A stretch of DNA of 64,000 nucleotides from a candidate division TA06 bacterium (GTDB lineage Bacteria; Edwardsbacteria; AC1; EtOH8). The translations under genes were made by a program, and so were the position numbers. The DNA lies in assembly GCA_016235665.1 (NCBI GenBank), contig JACRJI010000010.1, forward strand, positions 124,001 to 188,000, read 5' to 3'. This document shows positions 12,462-64,000 of this stretch, in pieces; the stretch's first letter is position 1; the number at the start of each line of letters is the position of its first letter. The notes under the pieces were generated by a model that saw only the letters and a program-made list of their open reading frames with translations, ran no database searches and had not been told where the DNA came from.

Positions 12462-12480
12462 ATTGATTCTTATTATTGTT

Positions 12481-12502
12481 GGGACAGGTTTCAAACCTGT
12501 CC
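12481..12502. repeat. Palindromic dispersed element (GGACAGGTTT/AAACCTGTCC)
   Basis: Ten-base perfect arms with a one-base loop, just upstream of the lyase/CoA-transferase start. Confidence 0.7.
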
Positions 12503-41500: not shown

Positions 41501-43320
41501 ATACCGCCGCCCTGCGGGCTGCCGGCCGGGCCTTGAATATCGACTTTGATGCACCCTGGAACGCCCTCTCCGCCGAGGCCCGCAGCATCGCAATGCACGG
41601 GCTTCCCGTCCGGGAATTGGAGGTCAAATGGAATTACCAGCGGGGCAGGCGCACCGGGGTGCACCATTTCAAGGGCCTTTGGAAGGGATTCGCCGGCCTG
41701 GTGGACATCGAGTACCAGCGCAAGCACGCCGACCGCCGGGGCGCAGCCATGCTGGGTTTGATGTCGCAGCAAACCTGTCCGGCCTGCGCGGGCAAGCGCC
41801 TGAAGGCGGAGCCGCTGGCGGTGAAACTGGCGGGCCGGGACATCGCTGAAATGACCGCCCTGCCCATTGACAGCCTGCTCCGGATGTTCTGCCAAGAATT
41901 GCCCGCCCTTCCCCCTTTTCTCCAGCCAAAGGAAAAAGGGATCCTGAATTCCATCGGCGGAGAGATCATCGCCAGGCTGCGGCCGATGGCCGGGGCCGGC
42001 CTGGGCTATATCGCGGCCGACCGCCTGGTTTCGACCCTGTCCGGAGGGGAGTTTCAGCGGCTGCAGCTGTCGTCGCAGATCCGCTCCGGCTTGACAGGCG
42101 TTACCTACGTGCTGGACGAACCGTCGTTCGGGCTCCATCCGGCGGACGCCGCCCGCATTTCCGGTTTGGTTACGGGTCTTAAGGATGACGGCAACACCAT
42201 CCTGCTGGTGGAGCAGTCGAAAGCGATGCTGGCGGTCTCCGACCAGGTGATCGAGCTGGGGCCGGCGGCGGGCCGGGAGGGCGGACGGATCGTGTTCCAG
42301 GGCGGCCCCGAACTGCTTGAGGCCTTCCGCGGCAAGGCTCCTTCAGTTCAGCGCACCGCCCGCGGGCTGCTGCCGGGACTGAAGATCACCGGAGCCTGCG
42401 CCAACAACCTGGACAATGTCTGTCTGAATATTCCCTCCGGCGGGATGATCGCGGTGACCGGGGTCAGCGGCAGCGGAAAGACCAGCCTGATCTCGGATGT
42501 TCTGTGGCGATCATATTCTGAGAAACAGCCGGTGAATTGCAAGCACATCGAATGGGGCCGGCAGTTTGACCAGCTGGTGATGGTGGAGCAGGATGCCCCG
42601 CCCCAGCCCCAAACGTCCGTCCCGGCGGCCTTTTTAGGAATCTTCGATGCGTTCAGGAGCCTTTTTGCCGGCAGCAATATGGCCAAGGAGGCGGGGCTCA
42701 AGGCCAGCCATTTTTCGTTCCTTTCCAGGGACGGCCGGTGCCCGGAGTGCGGCGGGGCGGGATCGATTCCGGTGTCGCTGGATTACTGGGCCGATGCCCG
42801 GGTGACATGTCACAGCTGCCGCGGGCAGCGCTATCTGCCGGAGATCCTGAATATCCGCATCGGCGGGCTGTCAATAGCTGACATCCTGGGGCAGTCACTT
42901 TCCTCGGCGCGGGAGTTTGCCTCAGGGCAGATCGCCTCCAAAGAACGGGCCGGACTGTTGCAGACGCTGGATCTGGCCGTAAAGGCGGGGCTGGGCTATC
43001 TGCCGCTGGGACAGCCGCTGTCCACCCTTTCCACCGGGGAAATGCAGAGGTTAAAGCTGGCTGCCGGCCTGGCTGGGGCCTCTTCCCGGCGCTGCCTGTT
43101 TCTGCTGGACGAGCCGACCGGAGGGCTCCATCCCAGGGACATTGCCGGACTGCTGAAATTGTTTGATGAACTGACTGCAGCCGGAGGAACGGTGCTCTGC
43201 ATCACCCACGAGCCGATGGTGGTAAGCTGCGCCGACTGGCTGATAGGGCTGGGCCCGGGGGCGGGGAAGAGCGGGGGAAAGGTTGTGTATGCCGGAAAGC
43301 CGCAGGATAAAGCAGATTGA
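38518..43320 (+). CDS. Tandem UvrA-like ABC protein lacking UvrB-binding domains
   Basis: 1600 residues with four ABC units: P-loops GVSGSGK(S/T) near residues 32, 510, 845 and 1314, and signatures LSGGEAQR (about 358 and 687), LSGGEFQR (about 1173) and LSTGEMQR (about 1503). It is two UvrA halves joined head to tail. Zinc CxxC pairs (CPACQGLG, CEACGGKR, CQECRGLG, CHSCRGQR) remain. In both halves the sequence runs from the DYLRLL(F)AR segment straight to the SFN zinc module, so the UvrB-binding insert (about 131-245 in E. coli UvrA) is missing. Likely a UvrA2-type tolerance or resistance protein, not the repair enzyme. Comparable double-length UvrA exists in Chlamydia. Confidence 0.88.
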   Translation: MKKEIHIQSAAENNLKGISLRIPHHRLVVVTGVSGSGKSSLVYGVIGREGQRLFLENFLEGHPLAGKKLRRPQGSVSGLYPVLTVNQRAVFRSPRSTVGTMTELYDYLRLLFARLGTSHQTLSRQDRSLFSFNTPAGQCPACQGLGVADRIDPELLISDKTKTLRQGALALTTPNGYIIYSQVTMEVLDQVCRSEGFSADIPWQDLTGGQQKIVLFGSDKLLIPFGKHPLESRMKWSGITARPRQEGHYKGIIPVMEEILKRDRNPNILRFARSFSCPACRGKRLNPEALSVSLWGMDIAGFAAMSIRQLAEYFERLEPGPSQSAVAAPVRELVLRRCGLLAELGLAYLTVDRGSATLSGGEAQRIKLANQAAAGLRNVLYVLDEPSAGLHPADHARLLGVVRTLVDNGNSVIAVEHDEQTIRAADWIIDLGPGPGLAGGELLFNGPCQDFIKANLPASRTWSCLKGIESFDHHVQPADGGEFFGMDKAARNNLKGFEARFKSGRFNVVTGVSGSGKSSLAEDLLETLAGQKAGGPDIFKRIIHVDQSPIGRTPNSNPATYTGMSDHIRDLFSSLPESRRRGYAKGQFSFVVKGGRCEACQGAGVQEIGMHFLGNVEIVCEACGGKRFSDQTLQVAHQGKNISEVLQMSIDEAHCFFEAEPKITTITRTLIGLGLGYLKLGQPSNTLSGGEAQRVKLAAHLAKPSAGKALYILDEPTTGLHLADVKVLAAALRGLTDKGHTVLAIEHHPDFILSADWVLDLGPGSGEEGGELIYSGPVSGLAGCRESITGRELKRHLARPPLSSASREPERTTVLPDEMRLRGVTTNNLKSVDLTVPLGQITAVTGVSGSGKSSLVFDTFYAESQRRFNEGLSPAIRQLMGKTGDARMETASGLTPSIAVRRRRAASNPRSTVGTYTGLHDLLRLLYSRAGGTALLSSAFSFNHEEGACQECRGLGTITACDPERLVTNPALPLTAGAMDGTKTGKFYGEPGGQHTAALRAAGRALNIDFDAPWNALSAEARSIAMHGLPVRELEVKWNYQRGRRTGVHHFKGLWKGFAGLVDIEYQRKHADRRGAAMLGLMSQQTCPACAGKRLKAEPLAVKLAGRDIAEMTALPIDSLLRMFCQELPALPPFLQPKEKGILNSIGGEIIARLRPMAGAGLGYIAADRLVSTLSGGEFQRLQLSSQIRSGLTGVTYVLDEPSFGLHPADAARISGLVTGLKDDGNTILLVEQSKAMLAVSDQVIELGPAAGREGGRIVFQGGPELLEAFRGKAPSVQRTARGLLPGLKITGACANNLDNVCLNIPSGGMIAVTGVSGSGKTSLISDVLWRSYSEKQPVNCKHIEWGRQFDQLVMVEQDAPPQPQTSVPAAFLGIFDAFRSLFAGSNMAKEAGLKASHFSFLSRDGRCPECGGAGSIPVSLDYWADARVTCHSCRGQRYLPEILNIRIGGLSIADILGQSLSSAREFASGQIASKERAGLLQTLDLAVKAGLGYLPLGQPLSTLSTGEMQRLKLAAGLAGASSRRCLFLLDEPTGGLHPRDIAGLLKLFDELTAAGGTVLCITHEPMVVSCADWLIGLGPGAGKSGGKVVYAGKPQDKAD

Positions 43321-49610: not shown

Positions 49611-50162
49611 ATGAAGTTGAAACGAACATACAATCAAAAAGCATTTACCCGCCTACGCAGTTGGCTATTAGAAATACCCTTTACTGAATGTGCGAGGCGG
49701 ATTGTCCATCGGAGCTATAGTATAGGCGGGTACGCTTCGGCGGGTTTCGCTCGTCGTAAGCAGGGAGCTGTTGCCAATGTTTTTACTGTGGTGGGCTTCA
49801 CCATGGTGGAAATGCTGGTGGCGGTAACAATAATTGCCATATTGATACTGCCTTTGGCCGGGTTTTTGTCGGGTCATCTTAAGCGCGATGAGAGAACGAT
49901 CGAAACCAGGCTGGCTTTAAGCGTGGCCCGGCAGACCATGGACCGGCTGTTGGCGGCGGAAGTCTCCCCTTACAATATTAAGGATGATTCCTTGGCCGTA
50001 AATGTCAATGGAAAACAGTGGGTGGTGGTGATTGATCCCATTGACGGACATGAACTGGGAGAGCCGGCCAACGGCACCGATCCCCTGGAGATAAGGGTCA
50101 GGGTATATTCCCTGAACAATAAAAGGCTTATGGCCCGGCTGACCGCTTTGAAAGGCCAGTGA
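49611..50162 (+). CDS. Prepilin-like (pseudopilin) protein, start uncertain
   Basis: The part from about residue 60 is a type IV prepilin/pseudopilin: GFTMVEMLVAVTIIAILILP with the conserved Glu5 and hydrophobic helix. The long frame before it (...CARRIVHRSYSIGG...) reads through text that looks like dispersed repeat, so the true start is nearer, perhaps the GTGs at 49788-49793. Size and neighbours suit a minor pseudopilin (GspI/PilV-like). The stop overlaps the next start. Confidence 0.65.
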   Translation: MKLKRTYNQKAFTRLRSWLLEIPFTECARRIVHRSYSIGGYASAGFARRKQGAVANVFTVVGFTMVEMLVAVTIIAILILPLAGFLSGHLKRDERTIETRLALSVARQTMDRLLAAEVSPYNIKDDSLAVNVNGKQWVVVIDPIDGHELGEPANGTDPLEIRVRVYSLNNKRLMARLTALKGQ

Positions 50163-50737
50163 TGACGAGTTCCCGGCAAAAAGGATTTTCGCTGATAGAA
50201 CTGATGCAGACTCTGGTCATCTTCAGTTTAGTGATGGCCATGGTCTTCGGTTTGTTCGTGAAGATCAAGCGGACCATGGACCAGCGGGAGCGCCGGTACG
50301 AGCTGTTCAATGCATCCCAGAAAATGGCGGCCGAGGTCGAATCGGCGCTTAAAAACGCTTCCGGCTGGAGCTGGGGCAAGCCCAATGGCATCTGTTTCAC
50401 CGGCAGCGATGACGACACAGTCAAGATCGTCTGGCAGGCCAGGGACAGCATGCTTTATTGGAATGATAAAAAATGCTTTGAAGGAAACGCCAGGGTAACG
50501 GGTTTTCAGCTCAGCTTTGCGCCGGGCCCGGATTCGCTCGGTCTGTATACAGCCCGGGAATGGTTCGAAGAATTGGACGACGACCGCAGCGGCGTGCTTT
50601 GGGGCCGGGAACTGAACCGGGTAAAATGGATCAAACTGGAGATGACCGTGGCAAAAGACGCTCAGCAATTTAAAGTTGAACGGGATTTCCGGGCGCCGCC
50701 TCCTTTGATCGATAACACGGATTATATTGAACCATGA
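50159..50737 (+). CDS. Pseudopilin of GspJ/PilW type
   Basis: 192 residues; GTG 50159 or ATG 50162, overlapping the previous stop. Leader MMTSSRQKG followed by FSLIELMQTLVIFSLVMAMV, so a prepilin peptidase cut after G is expected. The C-terminal domain has DSLGLYTAREWFEELDDDRS-type loops. A minor pilin of a type II secretion or type IV pilus machine; no other core components lie close by except the secretin. Confidence 0.8.
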   Translation: MMTSSRQKGFSLIELMQTLVIFSLVMAMVFGLFVKIKRTMDQRERRYELFNASQKMAAEVESALKNASGWSWGKPNGICFTGSDDDTVKIVWQARDSMLYWNDKKCFEGNARVTGFQLSFAPGPDSLGLYTAREWFEELDDDRSGVLWGRELNRVKWIKLEMTVAKDAQQFKVERDFRAPPPLIDNTDYIEP

Positions 50738-51369
50738 AAAATCTTGGGATCATAATTAGTTTGTTCATTAGCGCCATGGCTTATGGCCAGGTGTACACCA
50801 GTACTATGGAAGACGGCCTGGTGCTTTCCAATATTCCCAGGGCAAACTTTGCCTGCGTCAGGCAGCTTAAAAAGAACAACCGGGCCTTGTACCAGAATCT
50901 GATAAATGCCGCCTCGGTAAAATATTCCCTGGACCCCAAGGTGCTGGAGGCGGTGATAGACGCCGAGTCACAGTACAACCCCAGGGCGCTCTCCTGCAAG
51001 GGGGCCCAGGGTTTGATGCAGTTGATGCCCCAGACGGCCTGGCAGTTGGGGGTAAGCAACCCTTTTGATCCGGAGCAGAACATAGACGCCGGGGCCAGGT
51101 ATTTGAAGCAGATGCTGGACAAGTTTGGGGCTTTAGAGCTGGCATTGGCGGCTTATAACGCCGGGCCTGGGGCGGTGGAGAAGCATGGCGGTATTCCGCC
51201 GTACCAGGAAACTAAAGAATATGTGAAAAAGATATGCTCCAGGGTTTCAAAAACAAGGCAGGAAAGTGATGTTGTTAAAAATGGCCAGGTGAGTGGGATA
51301 CAGCAAAAGGTTGTGAAAAAGGTAAAGGTAAAAAAAGATAAAACAGGGACTATTATTATTACTAATTAA
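50734..51369 (+). CDS. Lytic transglycosylase (SLT family)
   Basis: 211 residues. Signal-type N-terminus (MKNLGIIISLFISAMAYG), then an SLT domain with catalytic Glu78 in VIDAESQYNP, GAQGLMQLMPQTA, and ALAAYNAGPGAVEKHGGIPPY. It cleaves peptidoglycan, probably to let the pilus or secretion apparatus through. The C-terminus is Lys-rich (VVKKVKVKKDKTG). Its ATGA overlaps the preceding pseudopilin stop. Confidence 0.88.
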   Translation: MKNLGIIISLFISAMAYGQVYTSTMEDGLVLSNIPRANFACVRQLKKNNRALYQNLINAASVKYSLDPKVLEAVIDAESQYNPRALSCKGAQGLMQLMPQTAWQLGVSNPFDPEQNIDAGARYLKQMLDKFGALELALAAYNAGPGAVEKHGGIPPYQETKEYVKKICSRVSKTRQESDVVKNGQVSGIQQKVVKKVKVKKDKTGTIIITN

Positions 51370-51485: not shown

Positions 51486-52187
51486 TTACTTTATCCTCTC
51501 AACCATCTTCTTTCCCAGCTTCTCGGCCGCACCATTAGCCATATCCTGAACGTCCCCGTTCTGTTTAACCTTCACCACATCCATTCCGCAAAGCTCGCCG
51601 TTGCTGCCCCACAGTATCTTGCCCATCAGCTCCAGTTTGTGCTTTTTGAACTCTATATCCCCCTCGCGGTAATCAGTTATCAGGCCGGTTATTATGTAAT
51701 CGGCCTTCAGCTTTTGGGCCAAAAGCACCAGTTGTTCCCGGCCGGCCGAGTCGGGCCGGGCTACTCCTAGCTCGGCTATGGCCGTGCCGGTCTCGCCGCC
51801 GTCCACCACTTGGCATTTACCGGAATTAAGCAGGTAAAAGCGCATCCGCTCGGCTATGTTTTTGCCCAGCCTGGCCGGGGCCCCGCCGGCATTTACGAAG
51901 TCCAGCACCGCCACCCGGGGCAGGGGCTTTGTTTGCTTGGCGGCCACCGGCTTTTCCTCCGGGGGCAGGATCTTCTTCTCGGCCGGGGGCTTGGGCTTGG
52001 CGCTTTCCGGTATTTTCCGTGCGTCCGGAGTCTTTAAACCTGCGGAATCAGCGCTGGTCCTAAGAATCTGAAGGTTGCGTTCGACCGGGGGCTGGGGCTC
52101 GGTCTGCCGGGAGCTGTCCGGCAGTGTTTGGGCCAGCAGGGGCAGGCCGGCCATCAACAGGATCAAAGTAAGAAGAGATTTCTTCAT
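51486..52187 (-). CDS. CsgG/LpoB-like periplasmic protein
   Basis: 233 residues. Signal peptide MKKSLLTLILLMAGLPLLAQ, a Pro/Lys-rich linker (about 20-88), then RVAVLDFVNAGG and DYIITGLITDY, the core strands of the CsgG/LpoB-type fold. Downstream of the secretin gene on the same strand, 50 bp apart. It may be an assembly or accessory factor for the secretin; not proven. Confidence 0.65.
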   Translation of the reverse strand: MKKSLLTLILLMAGLPLLAQTLPDSSRQTEPQPPVERNLQILRTSADSAGLKTPDARKIPESAKPKPPAEKKILPPEEKPVAAKQTKPLPRVAVLDFVNAGGAPARLGKNIAERMRFYLLNSGKCQVVDGGETGTAIAELGVARPDSAGREQLVLLAQKLKADYIITGLITDYREGDIEFKKHKLELMGKILWGSNGELCGMDVVKVKQNGDVQDMANGAAEKLGKKMVERIK

Positions 52188-52237: not shown

Positions 52238-54040
52238 TTACTCCCCGCTGGGCAAAATATGCGGCGTGATGTATATCACCAGTTCGCTCTCGTCCGAGGT
52301 ACTGGCGTGCTTGGAGAACAACACTCCCAAGAAGGGGATATCGCCCAGGAAGGGGATCTTATCCCGGGTTGAAGCCGAGCTCTTCTGGATCAGCCCGCCG
52401 ATGACGATGGTCTCGCCGTCCTTCAGCCGGATGGTGGTGTTTACGCTCCTGCGGCTAATTTCCGGAAGCCCCCCAGCGCTGATGCCGGAAAGGTTGGAGA
52501 CGGTGGGCCGGATCTCGGTGGTGATCTCGCCCGAGGCCGCCACCCAGGGCACTATTTCCAAAGTGATGCCGGCGTCAATGGAATGCAGCTGGGTGATGGT
52601 GCCGGTGGTGGTCTGCTGGGAGGTCTGGTAATAGCGGACCCAGCCCACGTTGATGCTGGCCTGGTTGCCGTTCAGGGTCGTTATCCGGGGCCGGGCCCTC
52701 ACCTTGGCTTTTCCGGCTGTTTCCAGGGCCTCGATGGTCATTAAAAAGTCAGACGGCAGCTTGCCCAGAGAGCCCAGGCTGAGCTTTCCGGTGATCTCAT
52801 CCAGCAGGTCGTTCAGCTTGTCGCCGCTGTAGTACTGGTAGACCTTGGGAAAGGCCAGCCGGCTGCTGTCAGCGGTAAAATAACCGCCCTTGACCCCCAG
52901 GTTAAGCGAGGAGCGTTTGGAAAGCTCCACCACCAGGCACTCTATCATCACCTGGGGCGACACCAGGTCCAGCTGGCCTATGAACTCGCGCAGCATCTGG
53001 ATCTGGTCCTCGGTGCCGGTCATCAGCAGGGCGTTCTGCTCCTTGATCACCTTGATGTTGGTCTGGGAGATGGAGGCCGGCAGCAGCCCCTGGATCCCCT
53101 CGGCCTTGATGTGCCGGAGCTTTATCAGCTCGGTCTTGGTCAGGGCCTGGGCCGCGGCCGAATTGGGGCTTTTGTCGCCCACCATAAAGATGGGCTTTTT
53201 GCCGGGATAAGACTGGTCGTCCAGTTTTTTGTAGGTGTAGTTGGTGCCCTGAAAGACCAGCTTAAGGGCATCCTCCAGCGGGATCTTGTCGAACTTGGCG
53301 TTGACGCTGCCCCGGATGTCGCCGTAGGTGACCATGTTGTACCCGGTCTGGGAGGAGATCTCCTGCATCAGGTTGCCCAGGTCGGCGTCGTTGAGGTCCA
53401 TGGAGATGTTAAAGGCCGAAGGTTTGCCGGTGTCGGCGGAGGCGATGCGCTCCACGTTCACCGCCATGGATTTGCGGCGGCCGGGATCGCCCCCGGCCTT
53501 GGTCACCTCAAAAATTCCGGACCGTTTGCGCATCAGGTAGCCGTTGGCCGAAAGCAGGGAGTTGAGGCCGGTCTCCACCGGAATGTTGTGCAGCAGTCCG
53601 GACATCTCGCCCTTGACGCTCTGGTCGGTGACGATGTTGATCCGGCCCTGGGTGGATATCTCCCGCATCACTTCGTTGATGTCCTTGTTGCGCACGTCCA
53701 GGTCCAGCAGGCCGTTGTTCACCGTTATGTTCATGAAGCGGTTGGCGTCCTGCTTTTTCACATAATAGATCTGGCCCTTCTGCTCCAGGCTGAAACCGTT
53801 TGATTCCAGCATCATCTTCAGCCCTTCGGCCACCGGCACGTTGCTGAGGTGGATGGTGACATTGCCGGTGACGCTCTGGTCCACCACGATGTTTAGCTTG
53901 AACTGGGTGCCCACCGCCCGCAGGATGTCCCGGACGTCGGCGTCCTTGAAGTCCAAAGTAAGGGTCTGGGGCGGGACTGGAATGGCGTACAGCTGAAGGC
54001 TGAACGCCAGAATGGCTAGAAAAATGAACGCTTTTTTCAT
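52238..54040 (-). CDS. Secretin with three STN domains (type II/IV pilus type)
   Basis: 600 residues from ATG 54040, preceded by a GGAG site; the frame runs to 54076. Signal peptide (MKKAFIFLAILAFSLQLYA), three STN-like domains (about 25-90, 105-175, 200-275), an N3/NolW-like domain (about 300-370) and the secretin domain ending DKIPFLGDIPFLGVLFSKHAS. It forms the outer-membrane channel of a type II secretion or type IV pilus system. The pseudopilin genes nearby fit. Confidence 0.9.
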   Translation of the reverse strand: MKKAFIFLAILAFSLQLYAIPVPPQTLTLDFKDADVRDILRAVGTQFKLNIVVDQSVTGNVTIHLSNVPVAEGLKMMLESNGFSLEQKGQIYYVKKQDANRFMNITVNNGLLDLDVRNKDINEVMREISTQGRINIVTDQSVKGEMSGLLHNIPVETGLNSLLSANGYLMRKRSGIFEVTKAGGDPGRRKSMAVNVERIASADTGKPSAFNISMDLNDADLGNLMQEISSQTGYNMVTYGDIRGSVNAKFDKIPLEDALKLVFQGTNYTYKKLDDQSYPGKKPIFMVGDKSPNSAAAQALTKTELIKLRHIKAEGIQGLLPASISQTNIKVIKEQNALLMTGTEDQIQMLREFIGQLDLVSPQVMIECLVVELSKRSSLNLGVKGGYFTADSSRLAFPKVYQYYSGDKLNDLLDEITGKLSLGSLGKLPSDFLMTIEALETAGKAKVRARPRITTLNGNQASINVGWVRYYQTSQQTTTGTITQLHSIDAGITLEIVPWVAASGEITTEIRPTVSNLSGISAGGLPEISRRSVNTTIRLKDGETIVIGGLIQKSSASTRDKIPFLGDIPFLGVLFSKHASTSDESELVIYITPHILPSGE

Positions 54041-54077
54041 GTAACTCCAATTTATGGTATATGAGGGCAAGTGCATA

Positions 54078-54278: not shown

Positions 54279-57200
54279 ATGAAAAGGCAATATTTATTGG
54301 TGTTTTTCATTGCGACAATAATCGCTTCTGTTCGGCCGCTATTTGTATTTGCCCAATCAGAAAGCGACACATTAAAAGCCTTTAAAGCAACTTCTGCATA
54401 TGCAGGATACGAGGCTGGTGAAGACATTGATTTAACCAGCGGAGCATTGAAGTTGACGGCCGAAGACATATCACTGCCCGGCCGGGCAGGGCTTAATTTG
54501 TCCATAAAAAGATTTTATAAATCATTTGTGGATAGCAGGGATTTCGAAGGTCCATTAAAACACTGGTCTACATTGGGCATGGGGTGGCAATGTTTTGCTG
54601 CGGTCTACAGAAATACAGGAGGCTCGATAAATGAATTTCAAAGCGGGATTTTATATATGGGTGACGGTTCGGTATATACTTTTTGGGGCAATGCTGGGCA
54701 AGATTTATATTGCCATCAAAAACCACGTTGGAGAATTTCTCATTCAGATTTTGTATTGAAGTTTGAAGATGGTTCAAAATATTACTTCGGGCCTCAAATC
54801 AATGGCGGTTTGAAGCCGGTTGTAAAAAGCGAGGACGTACACGGCAATTATATAACATATACATATAAACCGGGAACGCTTGATATTGACTCCATTTTCG
54901 ATACGGCCGGCCGGATTGTAAAATTTAAATGGTCGGAAGCTGCCAGGGAAGGCACCCCCACTCAGTTTATAATAAATAAACTTGACTTTATAATGGTACG
55001 ATGGTCAAAAGATCGACAGGCTGTTGATTTACCATGGGCCGATTCCACGGGGTGGCCGGTAAAGAAAAATATGATAATGATTAAATACGATTATACCCCG
55101 GTGAGCTTTTATACATTAGAAAACGCATTTTTTAGCGGCCCAGCTTTGACCGGTGTAAAAAAAATCACCTATTCAAGCAGCGGTGACAGTGTAGTTAGCC
55201 CAATAGCCAACTATGAGTATTCACAAATCACTAAACAAGATGCAGCATGGTCGCGTGACTCGGCAGATGTGGGCCAGTTGGTAAAAATAATACAACCTTG
55301 GGGTGGTTTTATTAAATATCATTATCGAGCCGCTTATTATAAAACTTTAGAAAATGCTTGGGGCACTTGGGTTGTTTTAGGCTCAAAAGGCTTTTCAACC
55401 GAAGACGGTATTTTGCAGGATTCACTTTGGACCTATCAGTATGAAAATGAACCATCTACGGTTGCGTTCCCGCGCCTTAACGATAAGCGCTTTTGGTTTG
55501 TAATAAAAGTCACCAATAAAAAAGCGGGTGAGCACCAAACTCATACATACAGCGTTGGTAAGACAACTTGGCTTAAAGACAAGCCGATGCTGAAGACGAT
55601 AATTGATTCTTCAGCCAGAGGCGAAGAACTAAAAAGGCGTACTTTTGTTTGGGCGGAACCGTCAGATGAATTGTATCATGTCTTGTCCGTACCTCGGTTT
55701 CCGCGAATTTTGAACGAAGAAACCAAAGTCGGAAACAACTATAAGGTAACCTATTATAAAAATTACAGTTATATTGACAGCACAGACATTAACAAATATT
55801 GCAGGAATTACGGCTTAGATATTGCCACAGCCGAATACGCTAGTTTCAATCCGGCCAGAAAAAGAATAACCACCAAGAATTACCTGCATAATCAAAATAT
55901 TAATTATCTAAACGCAAATATTTTAAACAAAATAACATTTATAAAGGTCACGGAAATAAATACCGCAGCTTCGCCAAGCACCGTAATATTATCATCTGAT
56001 AGCAGCGAATATGATCAGTTGCCTCTTGAGCCTTACAACGATGTTTCGTACGAGCCGTGCAGTTGGATCACAACAAGTTCGGATTTACACGGAAACAAAA
56101 CGAGATACTTGCAACGAAAAAATGTTTCATTTATAGCCAGGGAATACCGTTATGACAAATACGGCAACATGGTAAAAAGCGCTGACCCCTTAGGCAATAT
56201 AACCACTTACAATTACGGGTATGTTCCGCTATACAGCTCTCTTTATTACGAAGGGGTCTACCTATGCGGTATTTTCAACCAGCAATACGGCCTCACCAAG
56301 GGATATTCCCACGATCCTTTGACCGGTAGAATTATTTCCACTTATAATTATACTGCAGACATTACGGAAGCCTCAAGCGGTACAAGCCTAAATACATTAA
56401 GTTCCGCTTACACCGGGGATGACAATGAGATCAATTATGCCCCGGCAACCGGCTGGGATGTCCTGCCGCCCCCGCCCGGTTGTATGGCAATGTACACCAG
56501 GTATTCATACGATGGCTTGGGCCGGATCAATAAAATATGGCAACCCGGCGACCGGTATTGCCCAAAGCTTCCGGATATTGACGAACCCTCCAATGTCTAT
56601 GAATATTACGACCGGGGAGATGCCGCCGGCCATCCTTATATAATTGAAAGGCAAAAACGCGGAAACGGCCAAGATAATGAGTATACTAAGATAGCGTATA
56701 TTTACGATAGCCGGGGGAACTTGATACAAACCCAAAGGTTGATTGATCCAAACGACACCAGGGCGGTCATAACCAGCTACAAATACGACAGCCATAACTT
56801 AAATACCCGCCAAACCAGGCCTTATAACGGGCAGTTGGCAAGACTGGGCACCTATGCCGCTCCAGCTTGGAGTTCGCTGGCCAGCGACAGTTTTGTTTAC
56901 GACGGCCTGCAGCGTCCGGTGAAAACCATTTACCCTGACGGCAATTTTGTTTCCAAGCAGTATGACGGCAATTATGAAATAAACACGGACGCCAACGGGC
57001 AAATTACCACTTTCCAATATGATCCCTTCGGAAATCTTGCTTCGGTGGTGGATGCCCAGGGGAGTGCTACGGCATATGAGTCCGACTGTTTGGGCCGCTT
57101 AAAAACCATTACTCCGCCGGCCGGCAATCCCAGCAGTTATTTTTATAACGGTCTGGGGCAGTTAACGGAAATGCAAACCCCGGACATGGGCGGCAAAAAA

Positions 57201-60200
57201 TTCGTATACGATGACGCCGGCAACCTGCGTTTTATGCAGGACGCCAACCGGATGGGCGATCCTAACGGTAACTGGGTTTACTACCGGTACGATAAGACGG
57301 GAAGGATGACCTCCAGCGGTTTGTATAAGTATACCGGTACCGGGGACCCGATATTCGTTCCGTCCGACACGGGAAGCATTGAATACCTGCAGCCAACCAC
57401 AATCAACATTTACGATGAATATTACGGGTACCGCGATACGACCATAGGCGCCGCTAATGCCAGCTGGTTCAGTGAGCCGAGCCAGCCGGACAGTTTTATC
57501 ATAAGTGGAAACGGAGTATCTAATATCATAGGCATAAATGCAACATATGTAAGAAGTAAAAATATATATGCCACTGATGGGACGCCAGGTTCTACAGGAA
57601 TAACAGAAGAAACCGAGCCCGTTGACTATGATACGGTTTGCTTTTGGGGTAAGCCTGAGTTATTCATTGGTAAAGCAGAAACCGATATCTTTTCAGATAG
57701 ATGGAGAACATATATTGAACCAATTGATTTATCCCAGTTTTATAAATCCGATGAAGATACGATATTAGGGATATATTTATGCTTGCATAACAGAAACATA
57801 AATCCAAGCGCCAATGTTGTTTTATATAGATTGCCATACTATTATTATAAATACTACGCTGATGGCTACCTTTATTGTTATGAAAATCCTTGGAAAATTA
57901 AAAGTACAACTTGGCTTGTACAACCGAGCTATGGCGGAACGGACAGTGATGTAAATTATGAAAATGTAGCGGAAGATACATTAAACAAGTACGATTCAAT
58001 GAGAACCGTTTGGCAAACAAGCGGTTGCGTGGATTCGGTGAATATTTCTGATTGGGCAAAAAGCTGGCTGAATGGAAGTTTGCTGCAAAACGGCATTATG
58101 ATAAGCGAGGAATCGGATATAAACTTTTATTATGCAACAGTTAGCACTTATCCGCCGTATTTGAATATCATTACATCGGATACCGTGCCATGCAACATTA
58201 CATTGAAACCCACCTACCCCGGTGCCGATTATTTCACCGTTTATTGGACAACCAGCGAACTGGCGAAATGCGAAGTCCAATATTCAACGGATGAAAGTTA
58301 TTCTAACGTAATCGTATCACAGGATGAATATTTTAATCACAGCATAACTATTTCCGGTTTAAACCAGAACACGGTTTATAATTACCGCATCAAGGCGGTG
58401 GACAAGAGCGGGAATTTAACATTCACGAGGGGTCTGCAGTTCAAAACCGGCGATTTGCCAGGCATAGCATATTACATGTTCTCCCGGGGCAGGCCCACCG
58501 TTTCCATGTCCGAGGGCGACACCGCCGTATTCAGCTATGACGAACGGGGCAGATTACTGGCAAAGAAGACCAAACGTTCCGGAAGGTCTTACCTTGAAAG
58601 GCGCCAATACGACAAACAGAATAACCTGATCGCCTTTGAAACCACCAGCAACGGAACAACGAATTATTTTTACAATGCCATGGGGCAGCTATCATCTATC
58701 GTCTGCGGCGACAACCAGCTGGCCTCCTACACCTACACCGCCGCCGGGGCCTGTTCCACCGAGGCCTTCGGCAACGGGGTGAGCTCAATTTACTCCTACC
58801 ACCCCCGGCAGTGGCTTAAGGCCGCCGCCATGACCGGAAACTCCGGAACCATGTTCAACCACGCCTACCAGTACGACGCCAACGGCAACCTGACCTTTGA
58901 CGAGGACAACACCGGGCTAAGTTCCAGCACCGACCGCTATTATGCCTACGATCCCCTTAACCGCCTGACCTACGAGGGCAGCCAGCCCGGGCCGAATGCC
59001 ATTGATGTCACATTGCCCGGGGTCGTCAATTACGGCCTGAGCTACCGCTACGATGCCCGGGGCAACCGCACTTCCGGGGCCGGAGCCTCCTACTCCTACT
59101 ACCCCGGCACCAACCGCCTGCAGGCCGTAACCAACCCCGACGGCTCCCAGACCCCCTACGATTACGACGGCAACGGCAACACGGTCTACGACGGGCGCTG
59201 GCAGTACGAGTACGACTTCCAAAACCGGCAGAGCCGGGTTCACAGCGAAGCCTCCACCAGCATCAACAACATCAACTACACCTACAACGCGGCGGGCTTA
59301 AGGACCGGGTCGGTTAACAGCCTGACCCAGTTCGGGGGGCAGGTGGCCTCCCTGGCCGCCACCTTCCCCGAGCCCTACGAGGACCTGGTGGAGAGCGCGC
59401 CCAGCGGGGACGGCCACGACGACGCCCGGGACATGGGAACGCTAAAGGTCCACGTCAACGACAATTTCCTGTTCTTTGAGATCACCCACAAGTATCTCTA
59501 CGGAACCTCCCAGGGGAACTACGAGAACATCTACATCGCCTTGGACACCGACCAGAAGTTCGGCTCGGGGGCTTCCTGGCTGCCGGATGACATCAAGGTG
59601 CGGGTCACCGCCGACAACGCCTGGGAGCGGTGCATAGTCATCTACGACGAGCAGAACTTTGGCATCTGCACCGCCGAGGGATTCAGACTGGAGAAACTGG
59701 AGACCGACGACGGCAAGAAGATGAAGGTGAACTACACCAACGGAAGGAACTCCAAGGCCATCATCAAAGTGCCGGTGGCGCTTTTGGGCAACCCGGAGAA
59801 GGTCCGGTTCGTGATAGTAAGCACCATGCCGGGGGCGGCCAGCTACAAGATCTCCACCGCCTGCGACGTTCTGCCGGGCGGCAAAAAGAGCATAGACAGC
59901 CAGCTGTTGACCGCCTATAACGAGTACACCATGCCGCTGGCTCCGGGGGCGGTGCGGAGCACCACCACCACCGAAGGCTATTTGTACGACAACGACGGGA
60001 ATTTGATGGCCGACCTGGACGGGGAGAAGAACATCACCAAGCGGTATGTGTATGGGTTAGGCGGCAAGCATTTGGCAATGCAGATCAACAACACCGGCTA
60101 CGGGCCGTACAGCAACGCCTGCGATGATACGGCCAACATCAGCATAGGAGGCGACTCCTCGCCCCTGACCTTTAACTTTACCACCGACAAGCAACAGGGG

Positions 60201-61448
60201 GCATTTGCCCTTCAGGTGAACGTGGGCAACCCCAGCGGAGTGGGCTGCAATGCCGGTAACTTTGGGCTTTACAACCAGGGTATAGAGGTGGAAAGCGCCA
60301 ACTACGGGTATGTGCATATCTGGGTGAAACCACTTACCGCAGGTTCCTGGATGACCTTCCACGTATGGGACGTAAAATATGGCGACTGGAAGACGCTTAA
60401 GGGCGACAAGGACGGGGATATGTATTACGAAGCGGACCAGGACATGGCGGTGGGGCAGTGGAACGAACTGTGGCTAAAGTTGGATAATAACGATAAGGAA
60501 TGGACCCAAACCAAAGTTCGTTCGTTTAGCATGCATGCCAGCAATAATGCTTCGTTCATAATTGACGGGGTGTATACTTGTTCCAGGGATTGGAAGACGT
60601 TTTATTATAGTTGTGACTACCTCAATAGCCCCAGAGTGATGACGGATGCTACCGGAGCAGTGGTGTGGAGACAGGATTATCTTGCTTTTGGCAGTGAGGC
60701 CGGGACAGTTGCAACGGGTAATACCCATAAGTTTACGGGGCACATAAAGGACGATGCTACGGGGCAGTATTATGCCAAGGCCAGGTATTTCACAACTGGC
60801 CTTGGGCGTTGGTCACAACCGGAGCCATTGTTGAAAGGAGTGCCAAGCAAAGGGTTCTTAATGAATTCGCAGATGTTGAACCCATATGTTTATTGCCACA
60901 ACAACCCAATTAAATATAGTGACCCTGATGGACATTTGCCATGGAATGAAATTGCGGCAGGTAAAAATGATATTAGATCAAGTTTTGGACCACGCACAGA
61001 TCCTGTTACTAAAGCGCCAGCAAGGCATGAAGGGATGGACGTTAGAATGCAAACAGGGACTAATTTGCGTTCAGCAGCAGCAGGCACCATAATAAATGTT
61101 GAAAATAAAACTACAGGCTATGGTACAAATATTACGATTCAACATGAAAATGGTTTTACTACACGGTATGGCCATATGAATTCTACTAGTGTTAGTGTGG
61201 GACAACAAGTTAATGAAGGACAAACAATAGGCACAAGTGGTAGTACTGGAAAATCTACAGGCCCTCATTTACATTTCGAAGTTAGACAAAATGGGGCAGC
61301 AATAGATCCAACTACTGTTAATTTAGGTGCTTATAATAGTTATCCATCGGATCCACAAGCACAACAAACAATAGAAAACCTTAAACCTTGGGGTGTTGAG
61401 TTTAATAAAGACCCTGCAAAAAGTAAACCAATACCTGAAGTGCAATAA
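54279..61448 (+). CDS. Rhs/YD-repeat protein with M23 metallopeptidase tip
   Basis: 2389 residues. Signal peptide, an AT-rich N-terminal domain, YD repeats (YDGLGRI, YDAAGNL-type), a Fn3-like insert (about 1310-1390), a DOMON/CBM9-like domain (about 1690-1850), a jelly-roll-like domain (about 1960-2105), then the Rhs core (DYLNSPRVMTDATGAVVWRQ to NPYVYCHNNPIKYSDPDG, about 2110-2215). The tip is a complete M23 peptidase: H2250/D2254 (HEGMD) and H2330/H2332 (HLHFEVR). Such tips act on peptidoglycan. Base composition changes along the gene, GC-rich in the core and AT-rich in the tip. Confidence 0.9.
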   Translation: MKRQYLLVFFIATIIASVRPLFVFAQSESDTLKAFKATSAYAGYEAGEDIDLTSGALKLTAEDISLPGRAGLNLSIKRFYKSFVDSRDFEGPLKHWSTLGMGWQCFAAVYRNTGGSINEFQSGILYMGDGSVYTFWGNAGQDLYCHQKPRWRISHSDFVLKFEDGSKYYFGPQINGGLKPVVKSEDVHGNYITYTYKPGTLDIDSIFDTAGRIVKFKWSEAAREGTPTQFIINKLDFIMVRWSKDRQAVDLPWADSTGWPVKKNMIMIKYDYTPVSFYTLENAFFSGPALTGVKKITYSSSGDSVVSPIANYEYSQITKQDAAWSRDSADVGQLVKIIQPWGGFIKYHYRAAYYKTLENAWGTWVVLGSKGFSTEDGILQDSLWTYQYENEPSTVAFPRLNDKRFWFVIKVTNKKAGEHQTHTYSVGKTTWLKDKPMLKTIIDSSARGEELKRRTFVWAEPSDELYHVLSVPRFPRILNEETKVGNNYKVTYYKNYSYIDSTDINKYCRNYGLDIATAEYASFNPARKRITTKNYLHNQNINYLNANILNKITFIKVTEINTAASPSTVILSSDSSEYDQLPLEPYNDVSYEPCSWITTSSDLHGNKTRYLQRKNVSFIAREYRYDKYGNMVKSADPLGNITTYNYGYVPLYSSLYYEGVYLCGIFNQQYGLTKGYSHDPLTGRIISTYNYTADITEASSGTSLNTLSSAYTGDDNEINYAPATGWDVLPPPPGCMAMYTRYSYDGLGRINKIWQPGDRYCPKLPDIDEPSNVYEYYDRGDAAGHPYIIERQKRGNGQDNEYTKIAYIYDSRGNLIQTQRLIDPNDTRAVITSYKYDSHNLNTRQTRPYNGQLARLGTYAAPAWSSLASDSFVYDGLQRPVKTIYPDGNFVSKQYDGNYEINTDANGQITTFQYDPFGNLASVVDAQGSATAYESDCLGRLKTITPPAGNPSSYFYNGLGQLTEMQTPDMGGKKFVYDDAGNLRFMQDANRMGDPNGNWVYYRYDKTGRMTSSGLYKYTGTGDPIFVPSDTGSIEYLQPTTINIYDEYYGYRDTTIGAANASWFSEPSQPDSFIISGNGVSNIIGINATYVRSKNIYATDGTPGSTGITEETEPVDYDTVCFWGKPELFIGKAETDIFSDRWRTYIEPIDLSQFYKSDEDTILGIYLCLHNRNINPSANVVLYRLPYYYYKYYADGYLYCYENPWKIKSTTWLVQPSYGGTDSDVNYENVAEDTLNKYDSMRTVWQTSGCVDSVNISDWAKSWLNGSLLQNGIMISEESDINFYYATVSTYPPYLNIITSDTVPCNITLKPTYPGADYFTVYWTTSELAKCEVQYSTDESYSNVIVSQDEYFNHSITISGLNQNTVYNYRIKAVDKSGNLTFTRGLQFKTGDLPGIAYYMFSRGRPTVSMSEGDTAVFSYDERGRLLAKKTKRSGRSYLERRQYDKQNNLIAFETTSNGTTNYFYNAMGQLSSIVCGDNQLASYTYTAAGACSTEAFGNGVSSIYSYHPRQWLKAAAMTGNSGTMFNHAYQYDANGNLTFDEDNTGLSSSTDRYYAYDPLNRLTYEGSQPGPNAIDVTLPGVVNYGLSYRYDARGNRTSGAGASYSYYPGTNRLQAVTNPDGSQTPYDYDGNGNTVYDGRWQYEYDFQNRQSRVHSEASTSINNINYTYNAAGLRTGSVNSLTQFGGQVASLAATFPEPYEDLVESAPSGDGHDDARDMGTLKVHVNDNFLFFEITHKYLYGTSQGNYENIYIALDTDQKFGSGASWLPDDIKVRVTADNAWERCIVIYDEQNFGICTAEGFRLEKLETDDGKKMKVNYTNGRNSKAIIKVPVALLGNPEKVRFVIVSTMPGAASYKISTACDVLPGGKKSIDSQLLTAYNEYTMPLAPGAVRSTTTTEGYLYDNDGNLMADLDGEKNITKRYVYGLGGKHLAMQINNTGYGPYSNACDDTANISIGGDSSPLTFNFTTDKQQGAFALQVNVGNPSGVGCNAGNFGLYNQGIEVESANYGYVHIWVKPLTAGSWMTFHVWDVKYGDWKTLKGDKDGDMYYEADQDMAVGQWNELWLKLDNNDKEWTQTKVRSFSMHASNNASFIIDGVYTCSRDWKTFYYSCDYLNSPRVMTDATGAVVWRQDYLAFGSEAGTVATGNTHKFTGHIKDDATGQYYAKARYFTTGLGRWSQPEPLLKGVPSKGFLMNSQMLNPYVYCHNNPIKYSDPDGHLPWNEIAAGKNDIRSSFGPRTDPVTKAPARHEGMDVRMQTGTNLRSAAAGTIINVENKTTGYGTNITIQHENGFTTRYGHMNSTSVSVGQQVNEGQTIGTSGSTGKSTGPHLHFEVRQNGAAIDPTTVNLGAYNSYPSDPQAQQTIENLKPWGVEFNKDPAKSKPIPEVQ

Positions 61449-61460
61449 AAGGAGGTGTAT

Positions 61461-62012
61461 ATGAAAAAAACATTATTTACCTTTCTAAGTATAATGGTGT
61501 TAACTTCATTGTTATATCCGTTGACATTGAAAGAATGTAATAAAATAGCAAACATGGGCATAGATAAAAAGAAACTGACAAATAAAACGCCATATAAAAT
61601 TGCCAGTTTTATTGAAGACAGGAGGGATAACAATTTAGATACATCGTTTTATGAGATAAAACTTAATAAATCATTTTGTGTGTATGATGCAAAAATATTT
61701 TATATGACCAAATACGGAATATATAAAATATATATCTGTACAACAGTTGTTGAACAGGGATCTAAAGCTGATTACGTAAAAGTAATCACTAACAATAAGA
61801 ATATTGTTATGGCAATTATTGCGTATAGATTTGATGACAACTTAGAAGGTTTTAGAGAGCACTATGATTGGAACAAGAAAGATTTTGGGCTGTCTATAGA
61901 ATATAAGAAAACAGGCATGGTTTATTGGAAGAAAAATGATATAATTGAATTTATGGGATTGTGGGGAGCAAACAAAAAGTACTATTATTCAGGCATAAGC
62001 GTAAGTAAATAA
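61461..62012 (+). CDS. Candidate immunity protein for the M23 Rhs tip
   Basis: About 183 residues from ATG 61461, which has an AAAGGAGG site overlapping the Rhs stop. Hydrophobic signal-type N-terminus (MKKTLFTFLSIMVLTSLL), then an AT-rich, Lys/Tyr-rich domain without a recognised fold (YKIASFIEDRRDN, VYWKKNDIIEFMGLW). Export to the periplasm would suit neutralising a peptidoglycan-cutting toxin. Assigned from position only. Confidence 0.55.
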   Translation: MKKTLFTFLSIMVLTSLLYPLTLKECNKIANMGIDKKKLTNKTPYKIASFIEDRRDNNLDTSFYEIKLNKSFCVYDAKIFYMTKYGIYKIYICTTVVEQGSKADYVKVITNNKNIVMAIIAYRFDDNLEGFREHYDWNKKDFGLSIEYKKTGMVYWKKNDIIEFMGLWGANKKYYYSGISVSK

Positions 62013-62015
62013 TTC

Positions 62016-62041
62016 AAAAGCCCCGCTACTTGCGGGGCTTT
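62016..62041 (+). terminator. Rho-independent terminator
   Basis: AAAGCCCCGC, short loop, GCGGGGCTTT after the immunity candidate. Confidence 0.8.
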
Positions 62042-62069: not shown

Positions 62070-63407
62070 TTGTTGACCAGCCTTAGCACAGACAAGATGC
62101 AGGGCGCGGCCTCGGTGCAGGTGAACGTGGACGCTTCGGGCTACGGCAACTTTGCCTTCCCGGACCAGGGAATAAACTTCTCGGCCGGCAACTACCGCTG
62201 GGTTCACATCTGGGTAAAGCCTCTTACCGAAGGCTCGTGGGTCAGCTTCCATTGCTGGGACAGCACCAAGGCCGGCTGGCGCGACATGAACGGCGACAAG
62301 AACGGAGACAAGCTGTTTGCCGCCAATGAAGACCTGGAGCTTAACCAGTGGAACGAGCTGTGGGTAGACCTGGATAGGAATACTCAGGGGTATGTAGGCG
62401 GCACGGTAAGGGGCGTGCACATGCACGCCAGCCCCGGGGCGATTCTTAGGTTTGACGGGATATATACCTGCTCCCGCAACTGGAGCACGTATTACTACCA
62501 TACGGATTATCTGAATAGCCCCAGAGCCATGACGGATGCGGATGGCAATGTTGTTTGGCGGCAGGATTATCTTGCATTTGGCTCCGAGGCCGGGACGGTT
62601 GCAACGGGTAATACCCATAAGTTTACTGGCCACATACAGGATGCAGCGACAGGTCAATATTACGCCAAGGCCCGTTTCTTCACAACAGCGTTGGGCCGTT
62701 TTAGTCAACCTGATCCAGCATTAAAGGGCCCGCCAGGCAATCCGCAATTGTGCAATCCCCAGTTATTGAATCCATATGTCTACTGTGTGAACAATCCTTT
62801 GAAGTTTAACGATCCTTCGGGGATGGTGCTGGAGTTGGCCGGTGATCTTGATGAGACCAAGAAAACGCTTGGTGAAATAGCCGGGAAGGATGCCAGCGCT
62901 TTAGGCTATAATAAAGACGGCACGGTTACAGTTACCGCAACTGCAGAACAGCTTGCCAACAACGAGGGCTTAAGAACGATTGCTAATATAGCTGGTGCGA
63001 CTGAGAAATACCAATTTGCTGTATCGGCGGAGGCGAACTCGAATTCGTTTGGTGCTATTAATGAAAGTGTAACTAAACGAATGGAGTTTAGTACTAAATG
63101 GGCTACGCCCCCAGCAGGTTATGCTGGCAGAACGGTTGTTGCCAGTAAAGGTAGTTGGAATGCCCTTGACGGTAGTGGTAAGGTCCCTAGGATGGCAATT
63201 GCTTTTCACGAATTGACAGAAGTATTTGCCAGATCAAATGGCAAAGGTATGTATTATGAAAATGTTGTTAAAAACAAGGATGGTGGCTACGGACCAACAA
63301 GTCCGAGAAGTGGTGCGCACCCATACGCCATAGAGAGAGAAAAAATATGGCAAACGCAAGGAGCAGTCGGTAACAACTTTAATGGAGCTGCCCAATATGT
63401 GCCGTAA
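62070..63407 (+). CDS. Orphan Rhs C-terminal cassette with HELTE-type tip
   Basis: The first about 250 codons repeat the end of the main Rhs protein (WVHIWVKPLTEGSWVSFHCW, DYLNSPRAMTDADGNVVWRQ, EAGTVATGNTHKFTGHI, NPYVYCVNNPLKFNDPSG). The following about 200 codons are unrelated to the M23 tip and carry AFHELTEVFARSNGK and GAHPYAIERE, which looks like a zincin-type HExxx motif with a later His. No convincing start codon, signal peptide or promoter (it opens on TTG after a terminator), so it is probably a silent donor cassette that can replace the active tip. Confidence 0.7.
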   Translation: MLTSLSTDKMQGAASVQVNVDASGYGNFAFPDQGINFSAGNYRWVHIWVKPLTEGSWVSFHCWDSTKAGWRDMNGDKNGDKLFAANEDLELNQWNELWVDLDRNTQGYVGGTVRGVHMHASPGAILRFDGIYTCSRNWSTYYYHTDYLNSPRAMTDADGNVVWRQDYLAFGSEAGTVATGNTHKFTGHIQDAATGQYYAKARFFTTALGRFSQPDPALKGPPGNPQLCNPQLLNPYVYCVNNPLKFNDPSGMVLELAGDLDETKKTLGEIAGKDASALGYNKDGTVTVTATAEQLANNEGLRTIANIAGATEKYQFAVSAEANSNSFGAINESVTKRMEFSTKWATPPAGYAGRTVVASKGSWNALDGSGKVPRMAIAFHELTEVFARSNGKGMYYENVVKNKDGGYGPTSPRSGAHPYAIEREKIWQTQGAVGNNFNGAAQYVP

Positions 63408-64000
63408 TTTATTATTTGCTATTTTGGCTGTTTTGTTCATGACAGCTGATAATAAAGCCCAAACAGGTGGTAACGATACCACAGCCGCTATAAAAAAGGC
63501 TCTAAAAACAGAAGCATCACAGAGCCTAATTTATAAATGCGATAATGTTTCTGTGAAAGTTGAGGTTAACGAATCTACAAAAGATTATGTTAAGCTTAAG
63601 ATTACTTATAGAAATGACAAGTCGCACGATATAGGTTTACTGCCATATGTAGAGAAAGAGAAACCAGGCCTACGACTTGAGGAAGATACACGTTGGGGGC
63701 CGTATGTGTCGTGGTTAGAATTTGGTCTTTGGGAGAACGATTTGTTGCCTAGAATTATAAAACTTAGAAAGTGTAAAACTTTAACAAAATATTATATCGT
63801 ACAAAGAAAGGATATACCCCATAAAGGCGATTTATCTAAGTGTATTGGCGTTCTATTTAGTTACTTGGATGATTTAAAAGGTTACGATTATTTAATTAAT
63901 AGTGAAAGGGACGTTGTCATACCTGCAAATCCTAACGATATGATAAATTTCCTTTATAAACTGAAAACATATAATTTAGGGTTTATAGATATCAGCTATT
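63397..64000 (+). CDS. Candidate immunity protein for the orphan tip (3' end outside window)
   Basis: ATG 63397 with GGAG (63384-63387) overlaps the cassette end by 11 bp, and the frame stays open for 201 codons to the window edge. Starts MCRNLLFAILAVLFMTADNK, a signal or lipoprotein-like N-terminus, then an AT-rich domain (YVSWLEFGLWENDL, CIGVLFSYLDDLKGYDY). No family recognised. Position behind a toxin tip suggests immunity. Confidence 0.6.
   Translation, partial: MCRNLLFAILAVLFMTADNKAQTGGNDTTAAIKKALKTEASQSLIYKCDNVSVKVEVNESTKDYVKLKITYRNDKSHDIGLLPYVEKEKPGLRLEEDTRWGPYVSWLEFGLWENDLLPRIIKLRKCKTLTKYYIVQRKDIPHKGDLSKCIGVLFSYLDDLKGYDYLINSERDVVIPANPNDMINFLYKLKTYNLGFIDISY

Follow-up and report, generated by a model that had tools for sequence, protein, structure and literature searches.

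How would an Rhs toxin with a signal-like N-terminus leave a cell with two membranes, and what would its exchangeable tip do once outside? These questions are raised by a giant Rhs gene in the window, the 64-kb stretch of DNA analyzed here (C10:124001-188000, from a 2.7-Mb genome of 16 contigs; C10 ends 6.9 kb past the window). Our preferred answer, which we consider likely from the sequence, is that the gene encodes a Sec-exported Rhs toxin with an M23 endopeptidase tip, followed by the gene for a periplasmic immunity protein and, further along, by four silent tip/immunity cassettes that serve as a reservoir.

Elsewhere in the window lie an HMG-CoA-lyase-like domain fused to a family III CoA-transferase (10356 to 12494, minus strand) and a UvrA-like protein of 1,600 amino acids that matches the UvrA DNA-binding domain twice (38518 to 43320, plus strand). 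Rfam and tRNA scans of the 64-kb window gave no matches.

The Rhs gene, its tip and the adjoining gene

The Rhs gene starts with ATG behind an AGGAG box and encodes 2,389 amino acids. It and the gene behind it comprise the following features.

54279 to 61448, plus strand: Rhs protein with signal-like N-terminus, DUF6531, YD repeats, RHS core and M23 tip
57372 to 58462 (aa ~1032 to 1392), plus strand: insert 1, DNRLRE-like plus fn3/Pur_ac_phosph_N domain, from profile matches
59341 to 59933, plus strand: insert 2, DOMON/CBM9-like, resembling a glucodextranase C-module (the orthologous segment in genome G009 matches PF09985)
60084 to 60605, plus strand: insert 3, jelly roll, CBM-like by a weak fold match, common to tip cassettes
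60606 to 60932, plus strand: RHS core up to the NPxxxxDPDG junction, with Glu for the first Asp of the protease motif (QPEPLLKG)
60933 to 61448, plus strand: variable tip with M23 metallopeptidase (motifs HEGMD, YGHM and HLH)
61455 to 62012, plus strand: candidate immunity gene 1, exported, 185 amino acids, GC content of 0.285
62017 to 62041, plus strand: terminator-like hairpin 3' of immunity gene 1 (fold z-score, -5.6)

The hydrophobic N-terminus precedes a DUF6531 domain (aa 47 to 105; Pfam/NCBIfam), a match to RHS_repeat (PF05593; E value, 2.9e-32; Pfam), and RHS and Rhs_assc_core matches at aa 2108 to 2219 (TIGR03696; E value, 4.5e-17; Pfam/NCBIfam). With both YD repeats and the RHS-associated core, the protein has the makeup of an Rhs polymorphic toxin. 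The core closes with the PxxxxDPxG(L) junction, which here reads NPIKYSDPDGH, lacking the L, and the variable tip follows. GC content declines toward the 3' end, being 0.59 over the YD and DOMON-like block, 0.39 over the tip and lowest in the partner gene.

Within the tip, a profile search places Peptidase_M23 at aa 2249 to 2344 (E value, 2.5e-31; 108 bits against a cutoff of 28.7; Pfam). The HxxxD and HxH metal motifs of M23 peptidases are complete (HEGMD at 2250, YGHM at 2297 and HLH at 2330), in contrast to the degenerate M23 protein at the start of the window, which has NNGID in place of HxxxD and IMH in place of HLH. The initial annotation had proposed an Rhs polymorphic toxin with a signal peptide and an intact M23 tip, set it against that degenerate protein, and suggested an HMM profile search; the domains, the motifs, the DPxG junction with cassette homology fading beyond it, and the four further tip cassettes described below all bear it out. 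Among the tip's best sequence matches are ShyA, MepM and DipM, and ShyA-type endopeptidases are its closest solved relatives. The tip looks like a cell-wall-cutting enzyme and is predicted to be a peptidoglycan endopeptidase.

The YD region contains three inserted domains. Insert 1 matches Pur_ac_phosph_N (E value, 7e-8) and fn3 (E value, 3e-4), together with a DNRLRE match that falls under its cutoff (E value, 2.3e-4). The DOMON-like second insert had no Pfam match in its window copy; its orthologue in G009 matches Glucodextran_C (24.1 bits against a cutoff of 22; E value, 3e-5). The third, a jelly roll without a profile match, sits inside the last YD strand ahead of the RHS core motif. An AlphaFold2 model of the insert block was too poor to interpret (pLDDT, 42.5), and its resemblance to CBM11/28/27/4 structures (Foldseek; E values of about 2e-4 to 1e-3) is a hint at most. 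Because the CBM likeness comes from this one low-confidence model, sugar binding by the inserts is a guess, and a carbohydrate-binding-like nature is plausible, with weak support. The DOMON and jelly-roll inserts of the initial annotation are real, their identification as glucodextranase-C/CBM-like is weak, and the DNRLRE/fn3 insert had been overlooked. A comparison of the jelly-roll/core block with genome contigs returned two distant Rhs proteins, in a Bacteroidales and a Peptococcaceae metagenome-assembled genome.

The 185-amino-acid neighbor starts with GTG, or with ATG at 61461. The initial annotation called it AT rich and exported and proposed it as the immunity partner. It has a signal-like hydrophobic N-terminus, and gene order, low GC content, export signal and the terminator behind it all agree with an immunity role. 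No credible homologues of it were found among 290 genomes, so the toxin-immunity pairing is one of position; by that it is the probable immunity gene of the M23 tip. Its AlphaFold2 model was too poor to interpret (pLDDT, 43).

Spare tip/immunity cassettes behind the Rhs gene

Both open reading frames of the originally annotated span, 54279 to 62012, are present, but the span ends too early: a further cassette begins at 62070. Four spare tip/immunity cassettes lie behind the main gene, of which one is in the window and three are on the adjoining contig C12.

62070 to 63407, plus strand: orphan tip cassette 2, a headless jelly roll, RHS core and HELTE-motif tip with no signal sequence
63382 to 64000, ending 2 to 3 bp past the window, plus strand: candidate immunity gene 2, signal-like start by inspection, GC content of 0.34

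Orphan 2 opens in mid-domain behind immunity gene 1 and its strong hairpin. The export signal of immunity gene 2 was judged from its hydrophobic start, which the 19-residue threshold did not flag. The last 141 bases of C10 are identical to the first 141 of C12; from this overlap, the mark of a shared assembly k-mer, we infer that the two contigs join. At the start of C12, orphan 3 has an NlpC/P60-CHAP-like tip (weak match) and a lipoprotein partner; it lacks a jelly roll, and its frame opens with a short signal-like sequence at the end of C10. Orphan 4 combines a CHAP-like tip (weak match) with a lipoprotein partner, and orphan 5 has a tip with a hydrophobic segment and a multipass membrane partner. 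The main gene and orphan 4 share 89.6% DNA identity over 1,436 alignment columns, with homology fading past DPDG, and orphans 2 and 5 share 89.2% over 574 columns. Headless, with core homology and a candidate immunity gene of their own, these cassettes have the form of an orphan rhs tip array.

All five candidate immunity genes are AT rich (GC content, 0.28 to 0.34) and carry signal, lipobox or membrane segments. Of the five tips, three resemble peptidoglycan hydrolases, another may be a metalloprotease and the remaining one may act on membranes. Tip types and the export, lipoprotein or membrane signals on all five partners both point to action outside the cytoplasm, and the array would be an envelope-acting arsenal held as silent cassettes.

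The stretch from orphan 2 to the contig join, within the tip array, contains genes for an XRE-like protein, a DnaG-type primase and two tyrosine recombinases (L008:10096-15976). The 3' end of the XRE gene is repeated directly (82.9%) before pilM (L008:10101-10275 and L009:6422-6595), as if a mobile element had delivered cassettes 3 to 5. Orphan 5 has a short frame-shifting insertion near its start (AGCCTGTCGAGGGG; L009:4440-4480), and a similar motif occurs at about position 15990 of L008. A smaller tip/partner array stands behind an Rhs gene in G005 (L050:10168-12723), a genome without the secretion cluster described below.

In Photorhabdus laumondii Rhs1, the catalytic Asp is that of the second DPxG motif (PMC8636562). 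This second motif is intact in the main gene, whose first motif reads EPLLKG, with Asp replaced by Glu. The first motif is EPLL(Q/K)G in orphans 4 and 5 and DP in orphan 2; orphan 3, read by eye, has SQPEPLLQG and a second motif of DRNG. With Glu for the first Asp, tip release may fail or be unnecessary.

M23 enzymes are commonly housekeeping hydrolases, as are the tip's best matches, and the tip might be a wall-remodeling or self-processing enzyme, not a toxin, with an unrelated gene behind it, as the lack of relatives of the 185-amino-acid neighbor would allow. This we judge quite improbable: the tip starts at the standard Rhs junction and has the low GC content of acquired tips, and five different tips occur on the same core, each with a small AT-rich gene after it. 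That the downstream cassettes are decaying, functionless pseudogenes is a somewhat better alternative, given the frame-shifting insertion in orphan 5 and the missing start signals of orphans 2, 4 and 5, but one that we still hold to be unlikely, since the tip and immunity frames are open in every cassette and functional orphan modules normally have no starts (PMC3150448).

The secretion cluster and the route of export

The array lies within an eight-gene cluster resembling a type II secretion system (T2SS) or type IV pilus, a gene location expected of T2SS cargo. This setting, the cassette array and the absence of a T6SS had escaped the initial annotation. The left part of the cluster falls in the window.

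49611 to 50737, plus strand: two pseudopilin-like proteins (N_methyl), from profile and orthologue comparison
50734 to 51369, plus strand: SLT lytic transglycosylase (PF01464; E value, 2.2e-30)
51486 to 52187, minus strand: TolB_N/LpoB-like exported protein, from profile and orthologue comparison
52238 to 54076, minus strand: secretin (PF00263; E value, 1.4e-47; 76% identity to the G009 and G008 orthologues)

The secretin gene flanks the array on the left, with the pseudopilin and SLT lytic transglycosylase genes beyond it, and genes for PilM-N, PilO-P and a PilX-like protein flank it on the right. No assembly ATPase, as a complete T2SS would have, was found among the open reading frames read around the cluster, and PF00437 matches occur elsewhere in the genome. 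Orthologues of all eight cluster proteins are present in G008; in G009, of a related genus, blastp found seven, and the eighth, pseudopilin A, was read directly there. On a 1.2-Mb contig of G009, the gene for a 2,431-amino-acid Rhs protein with the same DOMON-like and jelly-roll inserts occupies the PilO-PilX slot; another Rhs gene adjoins the SLT gene. In G008, the sister of G009, this PilO-PilX slot is taken by a protein of at least 1,210 amino acids that has a signal-like start and resembles GH39 weakly (L088:5873-9502 and the end of L070); its repeat end recurs just ahead of PilX on the other contig. With an Rhs protein in G009 and a giant glycosidase-like protein in G008, the slot seems to take exchangeable cargo.

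The T6SS sheath gene TssC was not found in any of the 10 family genomes, while the Escherichia coli control was positive. Export by a T6SS was ruled out on this ground; the protein, with its signal-like N-terminus and no PAAR match in its 2,389 amino acids (Pfam), also differs from a T6SS effector. The likeliest outer-membrane route is the T2SS/type-IV-pilus-like system whose gene cluster holds the array, a proposal to which we give just short of an even chance. The setting is informative, because signal-peptide polymorphic toxins are listed as T2SS/Sec dependent without neighborhood markers (PMC3482391), yet it is guilt by association.

Alternatively, the Rhs protein could be a Sec-exported surface protein that takes an unrelated path across the outer membrane, in which case its proximity to the cluster would be a coincidence or the result of an insertion hot spot. 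We take this as a substantial possibility, somewhat below even. The cluster is not tied exclusively to Rhs: in G001, G004 and G008 it is present, wholly or in part, and the search for RHS repeats there came up empty. Its lack of an ATPase also argues against a dedicated link. Rhs loci are found at three further places in this genome (C4, C6 and C14), away from the cluster, and the integrase genes in the array fit a hot spot. On the other hand, Rhs genes occupy three cluster positions across two genera, the slot in G008 holds a different giant exported protein and not an insertion element, and the chance of finding three of seven Rhs loci in the cluster is roughly 6e-6, a post hoc estimate for loci that are not independent. 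A more tentative proposal, which we consider less likely than not, is that the T2SS/type-IV-pilus-like machine has a single slot for exchangeable cargo and serves to export or display giant proteins with Sec signals, Rhs toxins included; the array would then be a toxin arsenal for this pilus-type system in place of a T6SS.

Directly 5' of two other giant Rhs genes are stand-alone NHLP-type C39 peptidase genes (L072:1052-1531, minus strand, with Rhs1 of L051/L072; L010:2727-3275, plus strand, with L010:3377-10150). At the N-termini of both these Rhs proteins, a double-glycine-like leader comes after a hydrophobic segment (LSDREMEGIVGGE; LDENEMKDVVGKA). Together, the peptidase genes and leaders suggest that Rhs proteins are trimmed in a second step. 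We found no paper on Rhs proteins with C39 peptidases.

Proposed mechanism and comparison with known systems

For toxicity, immunity, sugar binding and export, we infer the following course. The Rhs protein would be exported via Sec to the cell surface or the medium, where the CBM-like inserts may help it to bind the envelope of a target cell. The M23 tip would then cut peptidoglycan cross-links outside the cytoplasm, and the 185-amino-acid neighbor would block the tip in the producer cell. Tips could be swapped by homologous recombination in the repeated DOMON/jelly-roll/core block. How signal-peptide Rhs toxins exit two-membrane bacteria is the wider question, for which the conserved cluster offers a concrete machine to test. 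In our literature search, we found no report of an Rhs toxin in a secretion cluster with apparently exchangeable cargo, nor of Rhs proteins with pseudopilins.

The toxin is of a known kind, an Rhs toxin with spare tips; what is unusual is the apparently envelope-directed arsenal and the secretion-cluster setting. ShyA and MepM, the M23 DD-endopeptidases that are the tip's best sequence relatives, are housekeeping enzymes and not Rhs tips. The layout of a full-length gene, an immunity gene and headless tip/immunity cassettes with core sequence up to DPxG is shared with the displaced-tip rhs loci of enterobacteria (PMC2935791) and with orphan Rhs-CT/RhsI modules (PMC3150448). In contrast to them, most cassettes here also include a jelly roll of CBM-like appearance, the protein begins with a signal-like sequence, the recognizable tips appear wall directed and no T6SS was found. 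The array is tip displacement beyond the well-studied proteobacteria, with tips that appear to favor the cell envelope. Like Rhs4 and Rhs5 of Myxococcus xanthus (PMC10433427) and the Gram-positive WapA, the protein is very large, has a signal sequence and is T6SS independent; whereas an outer-membrane route is not given for the M. xanthus proteins, the gene described here lies in a T2SS/type-IV-pilus-like cluster. A signal peptide and RHS repeats also ally it with the "T2SS/Sec-dependent" polymorphic toxins of Zhang et al. (PMC3482391, Table 1), a class listed without signature neighborhood genes, whereas the toxin gene described here is bordered by genes for a secretin, PilM/N/O and pseudopilins.
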